NCBI RefSeq assembly: GCF_006874475.1
Contig: NZ_VIRM01000008.1
Span: forward strand, 124,001-188,000
Origin: Microbispora hainanensis
Lineage (GTDB): Bacteria; Actinomycetota; Actinomycetes; Streptosporangiales; Streptosporangiaceae
DNA length: 64,000 nt
Direction: 5' to 3'
Position numbers and translations under genes: made by a program. Numbering within the stretch: position 1 is the first letter of the stretch; each line of letters opens with the position of its first letter. Shown here piece after piece: positions 56,594-63,742 of the stretch. The notes below the pieces were generated by a model that had not been told where the DNA came from, made no database searches, and saw only the letters and a program-made list of their open reading frames with translations.

Positions 56594-57235
56594 ATGCCGG
56601 CGGAGACCACGGTCCGGAGGCTCGTGGACGCCGCCGAGCGCCTGTTCGCCGAGCGCGGCATCGACGCGGTCTCGCTGCGCGAGATCAACGCCGCCGCCGG
56701 GCAGCGCAACTCCACCGCGTTGCAGTATCACTTCGGCGACCGCGCCAGGCTGCTGAAGGCGGTGCTCGCCAAGCACCGGCCGGAGATCGAGGCGCGGCGC
56801 CACCAGCTCCTGGACGAGTACGAGGCACGCGGCCCGCTGCCGCCGGGCGAGGCGCTGCGCACCCTCGCCGCCGCGCTCGTGCGCCCGGCCGCCGCCAAAC
56901 TGGCCGACCCCGACGGCGGGCGCGACTACCTGCGCGTCATGGAGCAGCTCGTGCACCGCGTGCCGCCCAGCCTCCCCGAGGACGGCGGCGGCAGCATCGG
57001 CCGCTGGCGGGAACTGGTCGCCCCCCTGCTGCCCGAGGCCGCCGTACGCCTGCACCAGCGCTTCATGGCGATCCGCATGACGTACGTCGAGCTGGCCCGC
57101 CGGGCGGGCGGTCCCCCGGCCCGGGACGACCGCCTGTTCACCAGCCATCTGATCGACGTGGTCGCGGCGGTCCTCGCCAGCGAGGTCTCCGGCGAGACCG
57201 CCCGCCTCCTCGCCGAACGCGAGCAGCGCTCCTGA
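56594..57235 (+). CDS. TetR-family regulator
   Basis: This 213-residue protein has the TetR helix-turn-helix AAERLFAERGIDAVSLREINAAAGQRNSTALQYHFGDRARLL. It is divergent from the acyl-CoA dehydrogenase operon, its probable target. The 98-bp gap holds two direct copies of ATAATGCG and the palindrome GCGATCGC (56540-56547); either could be the operator. None of the CTAGAA sites of the first cluster occurs here. Confidence 0.9.
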   Translation: MPAETTVRRLVDAAERLFAERGIDAVSLREINAAAGQRNSTALQYHFGDRARLLKAVLAKHRPEIEARRHQLLDEYEARGPLPPGEALRTLAAALVRPAAAKLADPDGGRDYLRVMEQLVHRVPPSLPEDGGGSIGRWRELVAPLLPEAAVRLHQRFMAIRMTYVELARRAGGPPARDDRLFTSHLIDVVAAVLASEVSGETARLLAEREQRS

Positions 57236-57472
57236 GACCGGCGCGCGTGTCGTCGCCGTACTTTTGCCCTGCCTGGGGAATCCGCTGCCGGAGCCCTGTG
57301 GCAGCGGGGGCACACCCATACTGAGGACGACCGCCGCGCGGCGGTGTCATCGGGCATCAGGGGATCCCGCGGCGGACCTGATTCCGCGTCCCTTCCGCGG
57401 GTCGCGCCGGACGCTCTTCGCGCGCATCGACCGCACCCGCTCACGCCATACGCGATCGGCCAAAGGGTGATC
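57236..57472. other. Intergenic region before synthetase gene
   Basis: This 237-bp gap lies between the TetR and Pls-like genes. The synthetase frame is open back to 57344, but the ATG at 57473 has AAAGGG upstream and begins the conserved protein. No clear operator or promoter stands out. Confidence 0.45.
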
Positions 57473-60400
57473 ATGCCGAGTCACGCATCGCGAACAGCAC
57501 GAACCGAGGACGGCTCGCGGATCTCGTTAAGGCGGTCACACGGACGGCTGCATCACGTCTTCGAGGCGCGGTGCGACCTGACGCCCGGAGCGACGGCGCT
57601 GGAGTGCGGGCCGGTGCGGCTGACCTACGCCGCGCTGGACGCCCGGGCGAACCGGCTCGCGCACCTGCTGCGCGGCCTGGGGATCGGCTGCGGATCCCGC
57701 GTCGCGATCCTGCTGCCGAGGTCGGTGCACACCTACGTGGCGCTGCTCGCGGCCGGCAAGGCGGGCGCGGCGTTCGTGCCGATCGACCCGCAGTCGCCGC
57801 CCGACCGGGTCGGCTACATCCTCGACGACGCCGGCGCCGACCTCGTGCTCACCGCGGCCGGCCGGTCGCCCGCCCTCGTCGCGCCGGGGCACCGCGTGCT
57901 CGACCTCGACGCCTCCGCCGGCCTCGCCGCCGCGCCGGTCACCCGCCCGCTCGACGGCACGTCCCGCGACGACCCGGTCGCCTACGTCATGTACACCTCC
58001 GGGTCGAGCGGCCGGCCGAAGGGCGTCGAGGTGGCGCAGTCGAGCATCACGAACTTCCTCGACGTCGTGCCGGGCCTGTACGGCGTGCGGCCGGACGACC
58101 GGGTCTACCAGGGGATGACGATCTCCTTCGACTTCTCCATCGAGGAGATCTGGCCGACGTGGTCGGCCGGGGCCGCCCTCGTCGCGGGCCCGGCCGGCTT
58201 ACCCCAGTTCGGCGCGGAGCTCGCGGACTTCCTGGACCGCACCGAGATCACGGTGCTCTACTGCGTGCCGACGTTGCTCGCGACGATCCCGCGCGACCTG
58301 CCGCGCCTGCGCACGCTGATCGTCGGGGGCGAGCCCTGCCCGCCCCGCCTGGTGGAGCGGTGGAGCCGGCCGGGCCGCCGGATCCTCAACACGTACGGGC
58401 CCACCGAGGCGACCGTCACCGCGACCTGTGCCGAGCTCCTGCCGGGGCGGCCGGTCACCATCGGCAGGCCGCTGCCGACCTACTCCGTGGTGCTCCTGGA
58501 CGAGCGGCGCGAGCCGGTGCCGGACGGCGAGACCGGCGAGATCTGCATCGGAGGGCCCGGCGTCGCCCGCGGCTACGTCGGCCGTCCCGACCTGACCGCC
58601 GACCGCTTCATCGAGCATCCGCTGGCCTCCCCCGGCGGCCGCCTGTATCGCACCGGCGACCTCGGCCGGGTCACCGCGACCGGGGACATCGAATATCTGG
58701 GCCGCGCCGACTCCGAGGTGAAGATCCGGGGACATCGGGTGGACCTCGGCGAGATCGAGAACGTGCTGCTGGAGGACCCCGGCGTCGCCGAGGCCGTGGC
58801 CGCCCTCGTGCCCGTGCCCGTGCCCGTGCCCGGCGCCTCCGCCGATGCCTCCACTGGCGAGCTCGCCGCCTACGTCGTGCCTGCGGCGAGCGACGGCGAC
58901 ACGGCCCTCGCCGGGCGGCTCCACGACCGGCTGCGCCGCAGGCTTCCGGCCTACATGGTGCCCTCGTTCCTCGACGTCGTGGCCGCGCTGCCGGCCATGC
59001 CGAGCGGCAAGGTGGACCGCAGACGGCTGCCCCCGCCGACCGGCCGCCGCCTCGTGGGCTCCGGGCCGGTGACGCCCGCCGAGGGCGAGCTGGAGACGCG
59101 CCTGCGCGCGGTGTGGGCCGAGGCGTTCGGCGTCGCCCCCGAGTCGCTGTCGGTCGAGGCGGACTTCTTCACCGGCCTCGGCGGCCACTCCCTGCTGGCG
59201 GCGCGCGTGGTGTCGCTGCTGCGTGCCGACGAGATCGGCGCGGGCCTCGCCGTACGCGACCTCTACGCCAACCCCACCGTGCGCCGCCTCGCCGCGCAGC
59301 TGGGCTCCCGTGCGGGCGCGCCGGAGCCGGCCGCCCCGCCCCGCCCGGCCCCCCTGCGGCACGGCCGGCGCCGGATCGCCTTGGCCGGGGCCGCGCAGGG
59401 CGCGGTCATCCACGCGCTGCTGCTCGTGATCACACTGCCGCTGTCCGTCACGTTGTACGGGTGGACCAACCCGCGCCCGGTCCCCGGCGTGCCCAGGACG
59501 GACGAGGGATGGCTGCTGCTGCCCGGTCAGGGCGCCGAGCTGCTCTCCTCACTGGCGATGGCCGCGATGACCGCGTATGTCTGCGTGCACTGGCTGCTGC
59601 CGGTGCTGCTCGCCCGGCCGCTGACGGCCGGCGTGCGGCCCGGGCGATATCCGCTGTGGGGCGTCACCTACGTGCGGTTGTGGGCGCTGCAACTGCTGCT
59701 GTCGGTCTCCCCGCTGCCGCTGCTGAGCGGCTCCCCGATGATGGGGGCATACCTGCGGCTGCTCGGCGCGCGGGTCGGGGCCGGCGCCGCCGTCGCGACG
59801 GCCGACGTCAACCTCCCGGCGCTGCTGCGGATCGGCGCGGGCGCGTCGGTCGGATATCGCTCCTCCCTGCACGCGTGGCTGGTGGTGGACGGATGGGTGG
59901 TCGTCGCCCCCGTGGAGGTCGGCCCGCACGCGTTCGTCGGAAACGGCGCCGTGCTCGGGCCGGGCACGCGGGTCGGCGCCCACGCCGGGCTCGGCGACCA
60001 GTCGGCGCTGACGCAGGGCGAGACGGTGCCGGAGGGGGCGCGGTGGGCGGGGTCGCCGCCGAGCCCGGTGGAGTCGCTCGGGCCCGTGGTGGAGACGATG
60101 CTGGGCGCCCCCGCCCCGGACGGGTGGAAGGCGCGTCACGTGGCCGCGGCGGTGGCGGGCCTCTGCTGCCTTGAGGCGGTCGCGGTGGCCACGATCGTGC
60201 CGAGCGTCCTGCTCGTCTGGGCGGCCGTGGCCACCTGGGGCGTCGCGGCCGGCCCGGCCGCCGTCCTGGTGGCGGGCCCGCTGTACGTGGCCGTCGTCTG
60301 CGCGGCGGTGGCCGCGGGCAAGCGCCTGGTCCTGCGGAAGGCGCCGGTCGGCGTCCACCCGGCGCGCTCCTGGCTCGGCGTACGCAAGTGGGCGGTGGAC

Positions 60401-61516
60401 AAGCTCCTGGAGTTCAGCCTGCGGTCGACCAACTCGCTCTACGGCACGCTGTACACCGCCCCGTGGCTGCGGCTGCTCGGCGCGCGGGTCGGCCGCCGCG
60501 CGGAGGTGTCCACGGCCGCGCAGCTCGACCCCGATCTCCTCACCCTGCGGGAGGAGAGCTTCGTCGCGGACATGGCGAGCGTGGGGGCCGCGGGCTTCGC
60601 CCGGGGCCGGGTCGCCTTCCAGCCGACCGAGGTGGGCAGGCGGGCGTTCGTCGGCAACGCCGCGGTCATCCCGGCGGGCACCCGGATGGGGCCGGGGTCG
60701 CTGGTGGGCGTCAGCACGATCCCGCCCCGCGGCGACGTGCCCGAGGGCACCTCGTGGCTCGGCTCTCCCCCGATGCACCTTCCGGTGCGGCAGGACAGCG
60801 GCTCGTTCTCCGAGGAGCAGACGTTCCGGCCGCCCCGCAGGCTGGTGCTCCACCGCCTGGGCATCGAGTTCTTCCGCGCCACCCTTCCGGCGACGCTGTT
60901 CGGCACCGGCTTCTACCTTTACCTGCTGGGCGTGCACGCGCTCGCCCGCGTCCTGCCCCTGCCGGCGGTCGTGGCCGCCTCGCCGCTCGCCGCCTGCGCG
61001 GCGGGGCTGGCGGTGATCGGCTGCTGCGCCGGGTTCAAGCGGCTCCTCATCGGCGTCTACCGGCCGAGGGTGGAGCCGTTGTGGAGCACATTCGTCCGGC
61101 GTACGGAGTTCGTTACCGGGCTGTACGAGGCCGCCGCGGTCCCGGCCGGGGTCGCGCTGCTGGCCGGCACCCCGTTCCTCCCGCCCGTGCTGCGCTGGTT
61201 CGGGGCCCGCATCGGCAGGCGCACCTGCATCGCGACCACCTACATGACCGAGTTCGACCTGGTGGAGATCGGCGACGACGTCGTGATCGGATCGGGGGTG
61301 TCCCTGCAGACCCACCTCTTCGAGGACCGGGTCATGAAGATGTCCGCCGTGACCGTGCGGCCCGGCGCGAGCGTCGGCCCCCGCGCCGTCGTGCTCTACG
61401 ACTCCGTGGTGGGCGAGGACGTGTCGCTCGGCGCCCTGTCGCTGCTGATGAAGGGCGAGCGGCTCACGCCGGGCACGAGCTGGCGAGGCATCCCGGCGCA
61501 GGCCGCCACCGCCTGA
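57473..61516 (+). CDS. Pls/PosA-like single-module NRPS (poly-amino-acid synthetase)
   Basis: This is a 1347-residue membrane NRPS. Its adenylation domain (25-515) has YVMYTSGSSGRPKG, SFDFSIEEIW, NTYGPTEATV, GDLGRV and Lys513 in PSGKVDRR. A carrier domain (536-610) has Ser573 in GLGGHSLLAA. The rest alternates membrane helices (from about 635) with three left-handed beta-helix, acyltransferase-like blocks (for example VGPHAFVGNGAVLGPGT and AFVGNAAVIPAGTRMG). There is no condensation or thioesterase domain. This is the architecture of epsilon-poly-L-lysine synthetase (Pls, about 1320 residues) and PosA. Specificity positions read by eye give D-F-E-Y-I-G-T-V-T-K; Glu at the third suits a basic amino acid. 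Confidence 0.88.
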   Translation: MPSHASRTARTEDGSRISLRRSHGRLHHVFEARCDLTPGATALECGPVRLTYAALDARANRLAHLLRGLGIGCGSRVAILLPRSVHTYVALLAAGKAGAAFVPIDPQSPPDRVGYILDDAGADLVLTAAGRSPALVAPGHRVLDLDASAGLAAAPVTRPLDGTSRDDPVAYVMYTSGSSGRPKGVEVAQSSITNFLDVVPGLYGVRPDDRVYQGMTISFDFSIEEIWPTWSAGAALVAGPAGLPQFGAELADFLDRTEITVLYCVPTLLATIPRDLPRLRTLIVGGEPCPPRLVERWSRPGRRILNTYGPTEATVTATCAELLPGRPVTIGRPLPTYSVVLLDERREPVPDGETGEICIGGPGVARGYVGRPDLTADRFIEHPLASPGGRLYRTGDLGRVTATGDIEYLGRADSEVKIRGHRVDLGEIENVLLEDPGVAEAVAALVPVPVPVPGASADASTGELAAYVVPAASDGDTALAGRLHDRLRRRLPAYMVPSFLDVVAALPAMPSGKVDRRRLPPPTGRRLVGSGPVTPAEGELETRLRAVWAEAFGVAPESLSVEADFFTGLGGHSLLAARVVSLLRADEIGAGLAVRDLYANPTVRRLAAQLGSRAGAPEPAAPPRPAPLRHGRRRIALAGAAQGAVIHALLLVITLPLSVTLYGWTNPRPVPGVPRTDEGWLLLPGQGAELLSSLAMAAMTAYVCVHWLLPVLLARPLTAGVRPGRYPLWGVTYVRLWALQLLLSVSPLPLLSGSPMMGAYLRLLGARVGAGAAVATADVNLPALLRIGAGASVGYRSSLHAWLVVDGWVVVAPVEVGPHAFVGNGAVLGPGTRVGAHAGLGDQSALTQGETVPEGARWAGSPPSPVESLGPVVETMLGAPAPDGWKARHVAAAVAGLCCLEAVAVATIVPSVLLVWAAVATWGVAAGPAAVLVAGPLYVAVVCAAVAAGKRLVLRKAPVGVHPARSWLGVRKWAVDKLLEFSLRSTNSLYGTLYTAPWLRLLGARVGRRAEVSTAAQLDPDLLTLREESFVADMASVGAAGFARGRVAFQPTEVGRRAFVGNAAVIPAGTRMGPGSLVGVSTIPPRGDVPEGTSWLGSPPMHLPVRQDSGSFSEEQTFRPPRRLVLHRLGIEFFRATLPATLFGTGFYLYLLGVHALARVLPLPAVVAASPLAACAAGLAVIGCCAGFKRLLIGVYRPRVEPLWSTFVRRTEFVTGLYEAAAVPAGVALLAGTPFLPPVLRWFGARIGRRTCIATTYMTEFDLVEIGDDVVIGSGVSLQTHLFEDRVMKMSAVTVRPGASVGPRAVVLYDSVVGEDVSLGALSLLMKGERLTPGTSWRGIPAQAATA

Positions 61517-61529
61517 GAGAGGAACACCC

Positions 61530-62258
61530 ATGGGATCCACCGGCGTACGCGGGGCCCTGCGCCGCCTCTTCCGCCAGGAGAAGCCCCCTCCGCCGCGCTC
61601 CGGACGGCCGCTCGCGCTCGTCTATCGGGGCCCGGCCTCGCTTCCCGGCTGCTCGGAGGCGGTCGCCGGGCTGCTGGAAGGGAGCCGCTGGGGCTTCGAC
61701 GTCCGCTACACCGGCCCCCGGGAGGAGATCCCGCTCTCGGCGGAGGCGCTGGCCGGGGCCGCCGTGTACGCCCAGCCCGGCGGGGGCGACCTCGACCGCG
61801 GCTATCGGCACCTCAAGCGGCATCGCGGCCCGCTCCGCGACTTCGTCGCCCGGGGCGGCCGCTATCTCGGCTTCTGCCTCGGCGGCTATCTCGCCGGAGC
61901 CACCCCGGGGTTCGCCCTGCTGCCGGGCGACACCGACCAGTACATCGCCACGCCGGGCGCGACCGTGGAAGGCGAGGAGGACACGCTCGTCGACGTGCGG
62001 TGGCGCGGCCGGGACAGGAGCGTGTTCTTCCAGGACGGCCCCTGCTTCCTGCTCGAACCCGGCAGCAGGGCCAGCGTCCTCGCCACCTACCCCAACGGCG
62101 CCGTCGCCGCCCTCGTCACGCCGTACGGCGCGGGCCGGGTCGCCGTCGTCGGCCCGCATCCGGAGGCCACCGACGACTGGTTCACCGACGCCGGCCTGCC
62201 GATGCGGCACGCGCAGGATCTCGGCCTCGACCTCGTGGACGCGGTCATGGCCGAGTGA
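61530..62258 (+). CDS. BPL_N / class I glutamine-amidotransferase-like protein
   Basis: This 242-residue protein has the fold of the N-terminal domain of biotin-protein ligase (BPL_N), a glutaminase-like family. The nucleophile elbow is GFCLGGYLAG with Cys116, an upstream loop reads YAQPGGGDLDRGY, and a histidine is in VVGPHPEATDDWF. The start lies 13 bp after the synthetase stop with GAGAGGAA upstream, so the two form an operon. It could modify, release or hydrolyse the poly-amino acid. No such role is established, so the link rests on gene order. Confidence 0.8.
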   Translation: MGSTGVRGALRRLFRQEKPPPPRSGRPLALVYRGPASLPGCSEAVAGLLEGSRWGFDVRYTGPREEIPLSAEALAGAAVYAQPGGGDLDRGYRHLKRHRGPLRDFVARGGRYLGFCLGGYLAGATPGFALLPGDTDQYIATPGATVEGEEDTLVDVRWRGRDRSVFFQDGPCFLLEPGSRASVLATYPNGAVAALVTPYGAGRVAVVGPHPEATDDWFTDAGLPMRHAQDLGLDLVDAVMAE

Positions 62259-62353
62259 CCGCGTGACCTGTGTGCCGAATGAGAATATTCGTTATTAAAG
62301 TGACAGATATGAATGAATTACCGCTTTGACGTAAAAATCCCCATGATGGGGGA

Positions 62354-63742
62354 ATGGTGCGTAGATTAGCCGCCCTTGCCGCGGGCCTCACCCTGATCGC
62401 CGCTTCGGCCGCTCCCGCCGCTCCCGCCGCCGCGGAGCCGGTCACCTTCCTCCCCGGGTCGGCGGGGATGGGCGACGCCTACTATCCCCTCCAGGGCAAC
62501 GGCGGCTACGACGTCGGACACTACGACCTGCGCCTGCGGTTCGACCCCGACGACCACGCGGTGGACGGCACGACGACGATCACCGCCACCGCCGTACAGA
62601 ACCTGTCGCGGTTCGATCTCGACTTCTCCGGACCGCCGATCAGCGGCGTGCTGGTGAACGGCGCCCAGGCGTCCTACCGCCGCGACGGTCAGGAACTGGT
62701 CATCACCCCGCCGAACGGCCTGCTGTCGGGGAGCACGTTCACGGTCGCGGTCTCCTACGCCGGCACCCCCAAGGCGGTCTCGGACGCGACCGGCGAGCAG
62801 GGATGGATCAGGACCAAGGACGGCGTGTACGTGGCGTCCCAGCCGGACGGCGCGCGCAGCTGGTTCCCGGCCAACGACAGCCCGGCGGACAAGGCCACCT
62901 TCTCCTTCCGGATCTCCGCGCCGGAGGATCTCGCCGTGCTGGCCAACGGCGAGCACACGGGCACGGCCGGCGCGGACGACGACGGCTACCGGACCGTGCG
63001 CTGGGAGATGAAGCAGCCGATGGCGCCCTATCTCGCCACGCTCGCGATCGGGCACTTCGTGGTCGACGAGGGCACGGTCGGCGGCATGCCCAACGTGACC
63101 GCCTACGACCCGTCGCTCGCGGACGAGTCGAAGGACCTGCACGACTTCACGGCGAAGGCGGTCACGTGGGAGACCGGCCTGTTCGGTCCCTACCCGTTCT
63201 CCTCCACGGGCGGCATCGCCGACGGCGACGGCTCGGTGACCGCGCTGGAGACGCAGGGCCGGCCCGTCTACAGCGGCGGCCCGACCGACGACCTGGAGAT
63301 CGTGCACGAGCTGGCGCATCAGTGGTTCGGCGACAGCGTCGGCGTGCGGAGCTGGCGCGACATCTGGCTCAACGAGGGCTTCGCGACGTACGCCGAATGG
63401 CTCTACCAGGAGCAGCACGGCGGGCCGTCCGCCAAGGAGATCTTCGACCGGCACTACCGGAAGACCGGCCACTTCTGGCACCTGAAGACCGGCGACCCCG
63501 GCCAGGCGCACATGTTCGACGAGGACGCGGTGTATCTCCGGGGCGCGATGACCGTCCACGCTCTGCGTACGAAGATCGGGGACAAGGTGTTCTTCCCGCT
63601 GCTGAAGACCTGGGCGCAGCAGAACAGGCACGGCACGGCCACCACGGCCGACTTCGTCGCCCTCGCCGAGAAGCTCAGCGGGCAGAACCTGCGCCCCTTC
63701 TTCGACGCGTGGCTCTACCAGGCCGCCAAGCCCCGCATCTGA
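62354..63742 (+). CDS. Secreted M1-family metallo-aminopeptidase
   Basis: This 462-residue protein has a signal peptide (MVRRLAALAAGLTLIAASAA, cleavage near residue 27). The M1 zinc site is HELAH (His318, Glu319, His322) with Glu341 in LNEGFATYAEW. The substrate motif appears as ALETQGRPVY, as in several secreted bacterial M1 enzymes. It lacks the large C-terminal domain of PepN. The epsilon-polylysine-degrading enzyme Pld is also an M1-type aminopeptidase, which makes its position next to a Pls-like gene suggestive. It has its own 95-bp AT-rich upstream region. Confidence 0.9.
   Translation: MVRRLAALAAGLTLIAASAAPAAPAAAEPVTFLPGSAGMGDAYYPLQGNGGYDVGHYDLRLRFDPDDHAVDGTTTITATAVQNLSRFDLDFSGPPISGVLVNGAQASYRRDGQELVITPPNGLLSGSTFTVAVSYAGTPKAVSDATGEQGWIRTKDGVYVASQPDGARSWFPANDSPADKATFSFRISAPEDLAVLANGEHTGTAGADDDGYRTVRWEMKQPMAPYLATLAIGHFVVDEGTVGGMPNVTAYDPSLADESKDLHDFTAKAVTWETGLFGPYPFSSTGGIADGDGSVTALETQGRPVYSGGPTDDLEIVHELAHQWFGDSVGVRSWRDIWLNEGFATYAEWLYQEQHGGPSAKEIFDRHYRKTGHFWHLKTGDPGQAHMFDEDAVYLRGAMTVHALRTKIGDKVFFPLLKTWAQQNRHGTATTADFVALAEKLSGQNLRPFFDAWLYQAAKPRI

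Follow-up and report, generated by a model that had tools for sequence, protein, structure and literature searches.

In Streptomyces albulus PD-1, poly-diaminopropionate (PDAP) is made by one protein, PDAPs, in which an adenylation (A) domain that prefers L-diaminopropionate (L-Dap) is joined to a carrier domain and a terminal domain, and the Dap genes lie at a distance from pdaps (PMC4668381). PosA, which makes delta-poly-L-ornithine in Acinetobacter baumannii, contacts the side-chain amine through the Glu at position 3 of its specificity code, a residue conserved in cationic homo-poly(amino acid) synthetases. Chain length is proposed to depend on the residue at position 2, which is Phe for PDAP and poly-diaminobutyrate, Met in PosA, and Ala in the polylysine synthetase Pls (PMC10522769). 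We compared with these systems a locus of Microbispora hainanensis, located in a stretch of 64,000 nucleotides (contig NZ_VIRM01000008.1, positions 124,001 to 188,000; hereafter the window), in which a synthetase, a BPL_N protein, and an M1-family peptidase are encoded in this order on the plus strand. We refer to the three genes as the trio. The new observation is that BPL_N accompanies a clade of synthetases with the code DFEYxGTVTK across several actinomycete families. The literature searched, most of it available below full text, yielded no account of BPL_N next to a synthetase of this kind, which is weak evidence of absence. As to function, the operon very probably directs the synthesis of a short-chain cationic polymer of amino acids that belongs to a known type, and the balance of the evidence tips modestly toward PDAP, with BPL_N and the M1 peptidase proposed to cleave the polymer as set out below.

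The window synthetase matches TIGR02353 at 538.9 bits (cut-off 423.1) and carries the domain set of the family, in agreement with a preliminary description of this DNA that had placed it among the Pls/PosA-type homopolymer synthetases. At E <= 0.001, its only Pfam matches are AMP-binding, AMP-binding_C, PP-binding, and Hexapep, with no condensation or thioesterase domain. An AlphaFold2 model of the terminal domain (mean pLDDT 78.6) contains three repeats, each comprising a two-helix membrane hairpin and short beta-helix-type strands. Among solved structures, hexapeptide acetyltransferases come closest (best Z 7.6, rmsd 3.2, 142 aligned). Because these matches are modest and cover mostly the third block, it is the predicted model that supports the count of three. 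The reading frame is open for 43 codons farther upstream, to a GTG at 57344.

Alignment gives the specificity code DFEYIGTVTK (residues 220, 221, 224, 263, 283, 285, 307, 315, 316, and 513), identical to the code previously read by eye. Asp and Glu occupy positions 1 and 3 (D220 and E224), and Phe occupies position 2 (F221). The Glu corresponds to the side-chain-amine contact of PosA, as had been anticipated, and on this ground specificity for a neutral amino acid is rejected (PMC10522769). The pattern DFEY[IL]GTVTK is found in 12/12 Microbispora A domains, the 13th locus (L048) being cut before this domain, and DFEYxGTVTK in 14/16 rows from outside the genus; the other two are Nigerium, with DFEHNGTASK, and a partial sequence. 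The code is DAESIGTVVK in each of the 18 rows for Pls, which represent 16 distinct genes, and all five rows read from synthetases linked to the aminotransferase gene dat conform to DFECLSAV[TS]K. None of six code strings occurs exactly in the literature searched.

A tree of terminal domains (40 rows from a chosen subset of loci, with long branches where Pls and split synthetases meet) unites the BPL_N-type synthetases in a single clade of 19 rows with support of 100/100. Piscicoccus and Nigerium join this clade (21 rows, 88/77), and the sister of the 21 rows is the Dat-linked synthetase of Streptomyces celluloflavus (22 rows, 100/99), whose branch is flagged as long. Pls and the split synthetases are placed apart. 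Identification of the locus as a polylysine locus is ruled out by this position outside the Pls clade and by the code DFEYIGTVTK versus DAESIGTVVK.

The pairing with BPL_N was assessed from both partners. Among 15 Microbispora genomes, the synthetase type occurs in 13 and BPL_N in the same 13, always adjacent. A BPL_N scan of species genomes returned 27 loci, nine of them from Microbispora and overlapping with those 13, and a synthetase lies upstream in 25/27 (16/18 outside Microbispora). The two exceptions are a 33-aa synthetase remnant at a contig edge and a contig that starts at BPL_N. When 392 Streptomyces genomes were sampled blind to BPL_N, with two candidates scored per genome, 13 synthetases of the clade were recovered, matching the window synthetase at 62-67%; BPL_N lies within 1.5 kb of nine, six of which were already among the 27 loci. 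A search with PF09825 over 396 genomes of the phylum missed the window BPL_N at E <= 1e-6 and was left out of all counts. A Streptomyces listing of TIGR02353 matches, which ends at about 666 bits, likewise does not enter the counts of this synthetase type. No BPL_N relative was detected at E <= 0.001 in the five Pls-only genomes of a 41-genome set, nor by tblastn in the stretches examined around six Dat-linked (0/6) and eight split-type (0/8) synthetases; coverage extended 1.5 kb to either side at many of the Pls loci and at some of the others. Of 16 Pls synthetases, one (S. pinistramenti) has BPL_N in the stretch examined, and there Pls abuts a complete DFEY-type synthetase accompanied by BPL_N. 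In that locus (L066:4961-15557), the pair stands directly upstream of Pls (DAESIGTVVK) and its M1 gene, such that two clusters lie head to tail. Nonconservation of BPL_N beside homologous synthetases, which the preliminary description had named beforehand as a refuting observation, is not what was found; the gene is conserved there.

The arrangement of the pair varies outside Microbispora. A DDAH-like gene separates synthetase and BPL_N in Micromonospora and Dactylosporangium, and a DUF418/HGSNAT-like gene does so in Piscicoccus and Nigerium. Two loci (L065:8120-11907 and L067:8126-12223) have the order synthetase, DDAH-like, BPL_N, DUF418/HGSNAT-like membrane protein, and second BPL_N, and the second copy in L065 has a twin-arginine-like start. 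A DFEY-type synthetase looks interrupted in Streptomyces albospinus (L071:4719-8910), where matches are split between frames, and only about half of one remains in genome G701 (L193:6715-8637). In a scan of 199 Streptomyces genomes for BPL_N, with at most 13 candidates scored per genome, eight contain a relative, and in five of these the 14-18 kb examined include no synthetase. Among the stand-alone relatives, L148:8162-9055 and L149:7874-8767 have lipoprotein-like starts and no synthetase within 18 kb. Such genes perhaps serve in defence against the polycations of others.

The link between this clade and PDAP comes from S. noursei, the species to which NCBI taxonomy resolves S. albulus and under which PD-1 is listed. 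At E <= 1e-40, the TIGR02353 proteins of S. noursei A-2-1 number exactly two, one Pls and one BPL_N-type synthetase. The latter has the code DFEYVGTVTK, falls inside the BPL_N-type clade, and is 67% identical to the window protein in the A domain and 60% in the terminal domain. Because S. noursei has just Pls and one BPL_N-type member, PDAPs is most likely of the BPL_N type. With the A-2-1 member (same clade, 60-67% by domain) standing in for the PD-1 sequence, the window enzyme resembles PDAPs as a single protein of A, carrier, and membrane terminal domains with Phe at code position 2. The systems differ in that an SbnB/NjxB-type match was not found in Microbispora and no M1 gene stands beside the A-2-1 synthetase. 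As judged from sequence comparison, PDAP, a known polymer, would be the likeliest product of the Microbispora operon. The A domain would activate a short diamino acid, most likely L-Dap and secondarily diaminobutyrate (Dab), and load it onto the carrier domain. By analogy with Pls, PDAPs, and PosA, the membrane-embedded triple beta-helix domain would then link the units through the side-chain amine. The preliminary description had envisaged a cationic homopolymer of a new kind, whereas code, clade, and taxonomy favour the known poly-diaminopropionate type, though the genes for monomer supply considered below do not.

Several observations weigh against this assignment. PDAPs was reported as a 4,338-bp ORF (PMC4668381), as against 1422 codons for the S. 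noursei A-2-1 frame; species, family count, and code, rather than the PD-1 sequence, are therefore the basis for orthology with PDAPs. Of the 13 synthetases in the Streptomyces sample, three lack an adjacent BPL_N (one of these synthetases is broken), and a fourth retains only part of a BPL_N match where its contig ends. No SbnB/ornithine-cyclodeaminase-family match was obtained at E <= 1e-10 in 15/15 Microbispora genomes, that of the window included. Dat exceeds the cut-off in 1/13 trio genomes (G002) and does not do so in the genome of the window; G005, the only other Microbispora genome with Dat above the cut-off, lacks the trio. Thus, in 12/13 trio genomes the monomer is not accounted for by any of the known routes to Dap or Dab. 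In S. noursei A-2-1, too, all SbnB relatives score below the cut-off.

Given these missing supply genes, the product could be another diamino-acid polymer, such as poly-Dab, poly-ornithine, or one not yet described. The SbnB-type match in 0/15 genomes and the 12/13 trio genomes with no Dat over the cut-off fit such a product, as do the differences between the window code and the Dat-linked DFECLSAVTK, and ornithine and lysine are always available in cells. However, the PDAP species S. noursei has the same code except for the variable fifth residue. Moreover, substrates of three or four carbons are associated with Phe at position 2, and ornithine with Met (PMC10522769). We regard a different polymer as possible, with PDAP remaining the preferred product.

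The other described systems are more distant. The S. celluloflavus type, a gamma-poly-L-Dab synthetase with dat, is sister to the BPL_N-type clade in the terminal-domain tree and shares the DFE start of the code, but its code is DFECLSAVTK and a Dat-type aminotransferase is encoded next door in 6/6 loci. From its species and its dat gene, the S. celluloflavus locus (L133) is taken to encode the proven poly-Dab enzyme. Five further Dat-linked synthetases in the Streptomyces sample match the window enzyme at 46-47% and have no BPL_N within 1.5 kb (0/5); an aminotransferase lies directly downstream in 5/5, at 74-83% to that of S. celluloflavus, and the four readable codes comprise three DFECLSAVTK and one DFECLSAVSK. 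Pls is alike in family, architecture, and an M1-type peptidase downstream; it differs in its code, in a terminal-domain identity of 31-36%, in the lineage of its M1 peptidase, and in having BPL_N only where a second cluster abuts. PosA (DMEHNGTVSK) has the same architecture and shares conserved Glu, Thr, and hydroxyl code residues, but has Met for Phe at position 2 and forms a single-gene operon (PMC10522769). In the split synthetases (L135, L137, L138, L140, L141, L142, L143, and L144), the carrier and terminal domain form one protein and the A domain is separate. Their A-domain code is DIWQSTANHK in 5/8, an SbnB-family gene is nearby in 6/8, and they are candidate makers of other Dap polymers.

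The window BPL_N matches PF09825 at 43.3 bits, and Cys116, His210, and Glu212 are invariant in 21/21 BPL_N sequences. Its predicted structure (pLDDT 90.7) matches the glutaminase subunit Pdx2 (Z 20.7, rmsd 2.3, 178 aligned) and plant gamma-glutamyl peptidase 1 (GGP1; Z 16.4, rmsd 3.2, 198 aligned). The similarity to Pdx2, HisH, and GGP1 is one of fold, whereas sequence identity is 13-21% over aligned residues. These enzymes likewise have a Cys-His-Glu triad. A profile built from the BPL_N alignment gave weak matches only against the PDB (best E 0.2). The modelled fold fits a glutaminase and a peptidase alike. Isopeptide hydrolysis is probably the likeliest activity because some relatives (the second copy in L065, L148, and L149) have export-like N-termini, as judged by eye, and because the pairing tracks a single subfamily of synthetases. 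Compared with the tailoring role that the preliminary description had put forward, hydrolysis would be at least equally probable. In the window, BPL_N would be a cytosolic protein that most likely cuts the isopeptide polymer or the carrier-bound chain inside the cell, and this cleavage could serve self-protection or chain-length control.

Its closest solved folds, glutaminase subunits such as Pdx2 and HisH, also suggest that BPL_N could supply a cysteine-synthase-like enzyme with ammonia for making Dap, in place of the ornithine-derived ammonia of NjxB. The intact triad, the lack of an SbnB/NjxB-type match in the 15 Microbispora genomes, and the use of ammonia by NjxA (PMC4668381) are consistent with this role. 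We consider it very unlikely, however, since no synthase partner gene is present in the trio, BPL_N also adjoins the synthetase in Streptomyces with SbnB-family matches over the cut-off (7/16 non-Microbispora genomes), and the export-like N-termini of relatives suit a hydrolase better than an ammonia channel.

BPL_N could also be a release or editing factor, akin to a thioesterase, that acts on the enzyme-bound chain rather than on free polymer. These synthetases have no thioesterase domain (by Pfam and PMC4668381), and the short gap and subfamily-specific pairing would suit such a partner. On the other hand, Pls and Dat-linked enzymes do without BPL_N in the loci examined, as do 3/13 Streptomyces synthetases of the clade itself, and stand-alone relatives occur in five genomes with no synthetase in the stretch examined. 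A role restricted to the enzyme-bound chain is thus unlikely, and hydrolysis of the isopeptide polymer is preferred. Taken more broadly, BPL_N may represent a new enzyme class, dedicated to the BPL_N-type clade, that hydrolyses isopeptide polymers or releases chains, with the monomer of Microbispora and of relatives lacking known Dap or Dab genes supplied by an undescribed route or being a diamino acid new to such polymers; we advance this combination tentatively.

The coordinates of the trio and neighbouring features are collected in Table 1. All three ORFs were found at the positions given in the preliminary description, including the 13-bp gap between the synthetase and BPL_N genes; the gap between BPL_N and the M1 gene is 95 bp. 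The TetR gene and the oxidase/dehydrogenase genes upstream differ between species, which rules them out as core parts of the locus.

Table 1. Features of the Microbispora hainanensis locus (window coordinates)
Feature	Position	Strand	Basis
TetR-family regulator gene, upstream of synthetase	56594..57235	+	Present in 9/13 Microbispora loci (one negative locus, L048, is cut short)
Pls/PosA-family synthetase: A domain aa ~20-530, carrier Ser573, terminal domain with three membrane-hairpin and beta-helix-like repeats	57473..61516	+	Pfam, TIGR02353, alignment, predicted model
BPL_N, class-I glutamine-amidotransferase fold, 242 aa, Cys116-His210-Glu212, no hydrophobic segment (hydropathy)	61530..62258	+	Pfam, alignment, model
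AT-rich element before M1 gene, AATTACCGCTT-N7-AAAATCCCCATGATGGGG; putative function	62316..62351	+	AATTACCG conserved at this place
M1-family zinc peptidase, 462 aa, HELAH...E, N-terminal hydrophobic stretch; probably secreted	62354..63742	+	Pfam, motif, neighbour comparison

The M1 protein matches PF01433 and PF17900, and its hydrophobic stretch spans residues 5-23. In a tree of M1 sequences, the 13 trio genes group together (100/99) and are sister to a Microbispora paralogue sited elsewhere in other genomes of the genus. The Pls-linked M1 genes form a separate clade (7 rows, 100/98; Piscicoccus, under the cut-off, is not included), which rules out membership of the trio M1 in the Pls-linked lineage. 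The preliminary description had seen in this peptidase a reminder of Pld, and the tree instead groups it outside that Pld-like lineage. PldII itself is probably an M1 enzyme. An M1 gene stands directly beside 15/16 Pls synthetases examined and ~5 kb away in the 16th. M1 genes also occur near Dat-linked synthetases, in L133 (~5 kb off) and in L194. The latter locus (G666:C68) has two Dat-linked synthetases, with codes DFECLSAVSK and DFECLSAVTK, and dat and the M1 gene lie between them. The presence of more than one M1 lineage beside such synthetases, as read from sequence, fits repeated recruitment.

Among non-Microbispora BPL_N loci, an M1-family gene follows BPL_N in 1/18 (two of these loci are short), namely in Piscicoccus; its product scores 52.2 bits against PF01433 and is ~25% identical to the window M1 over 261 residues. 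The Piscicoccus intestinalis locus (L081:9769-11280) has the order synthetase, DUF418-like, BPL_N, and M1 with a lipoprotein-like start, parallel to the Microbispora trio.

The sequence AATTACCG precedes the M1 gene in 13/13 Microbispora trio loci and is most divergent in L041. It forms part of the pattern AATTACCG...CCCATnATGGG, and the longer pattern matches once in the genome of the window. A promoter scan found no promoter. The AT-rich element is a possible promoter or leader of the M1 gene's own, which would suit a housekeeping peptidase whose gene lies here by chance, as would the location of its close paralogue elsewhere in other Microbispora genomes. This explanation is quite unlikely, given that the M1 gene adjoins BPL_N in 13/13 trio loci, whereas gene content on the upstream side of the synthetase differs between loci, and given the distant M1 gene after BPL_N in Piscicoccus and the M1 genes directly beside most Pls synthetases. 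As part of the proposed operon, the secreted M1 zinc aminopeptidase would most likely trim exported or returning polymer outside the cell.

Our analysis ties the DFEYxGTVTK code to one subfamily of homopolymer synthetases with a hydrolase-fold partner. It also shows that these synthetases have M1 neighbours from more than one lineage, and it brings to light a gap in the supply of the monomer. The release, sizing, and tolerance of polycations made by thioesterase-less synthetases thereby become testable with one small soluble protein.

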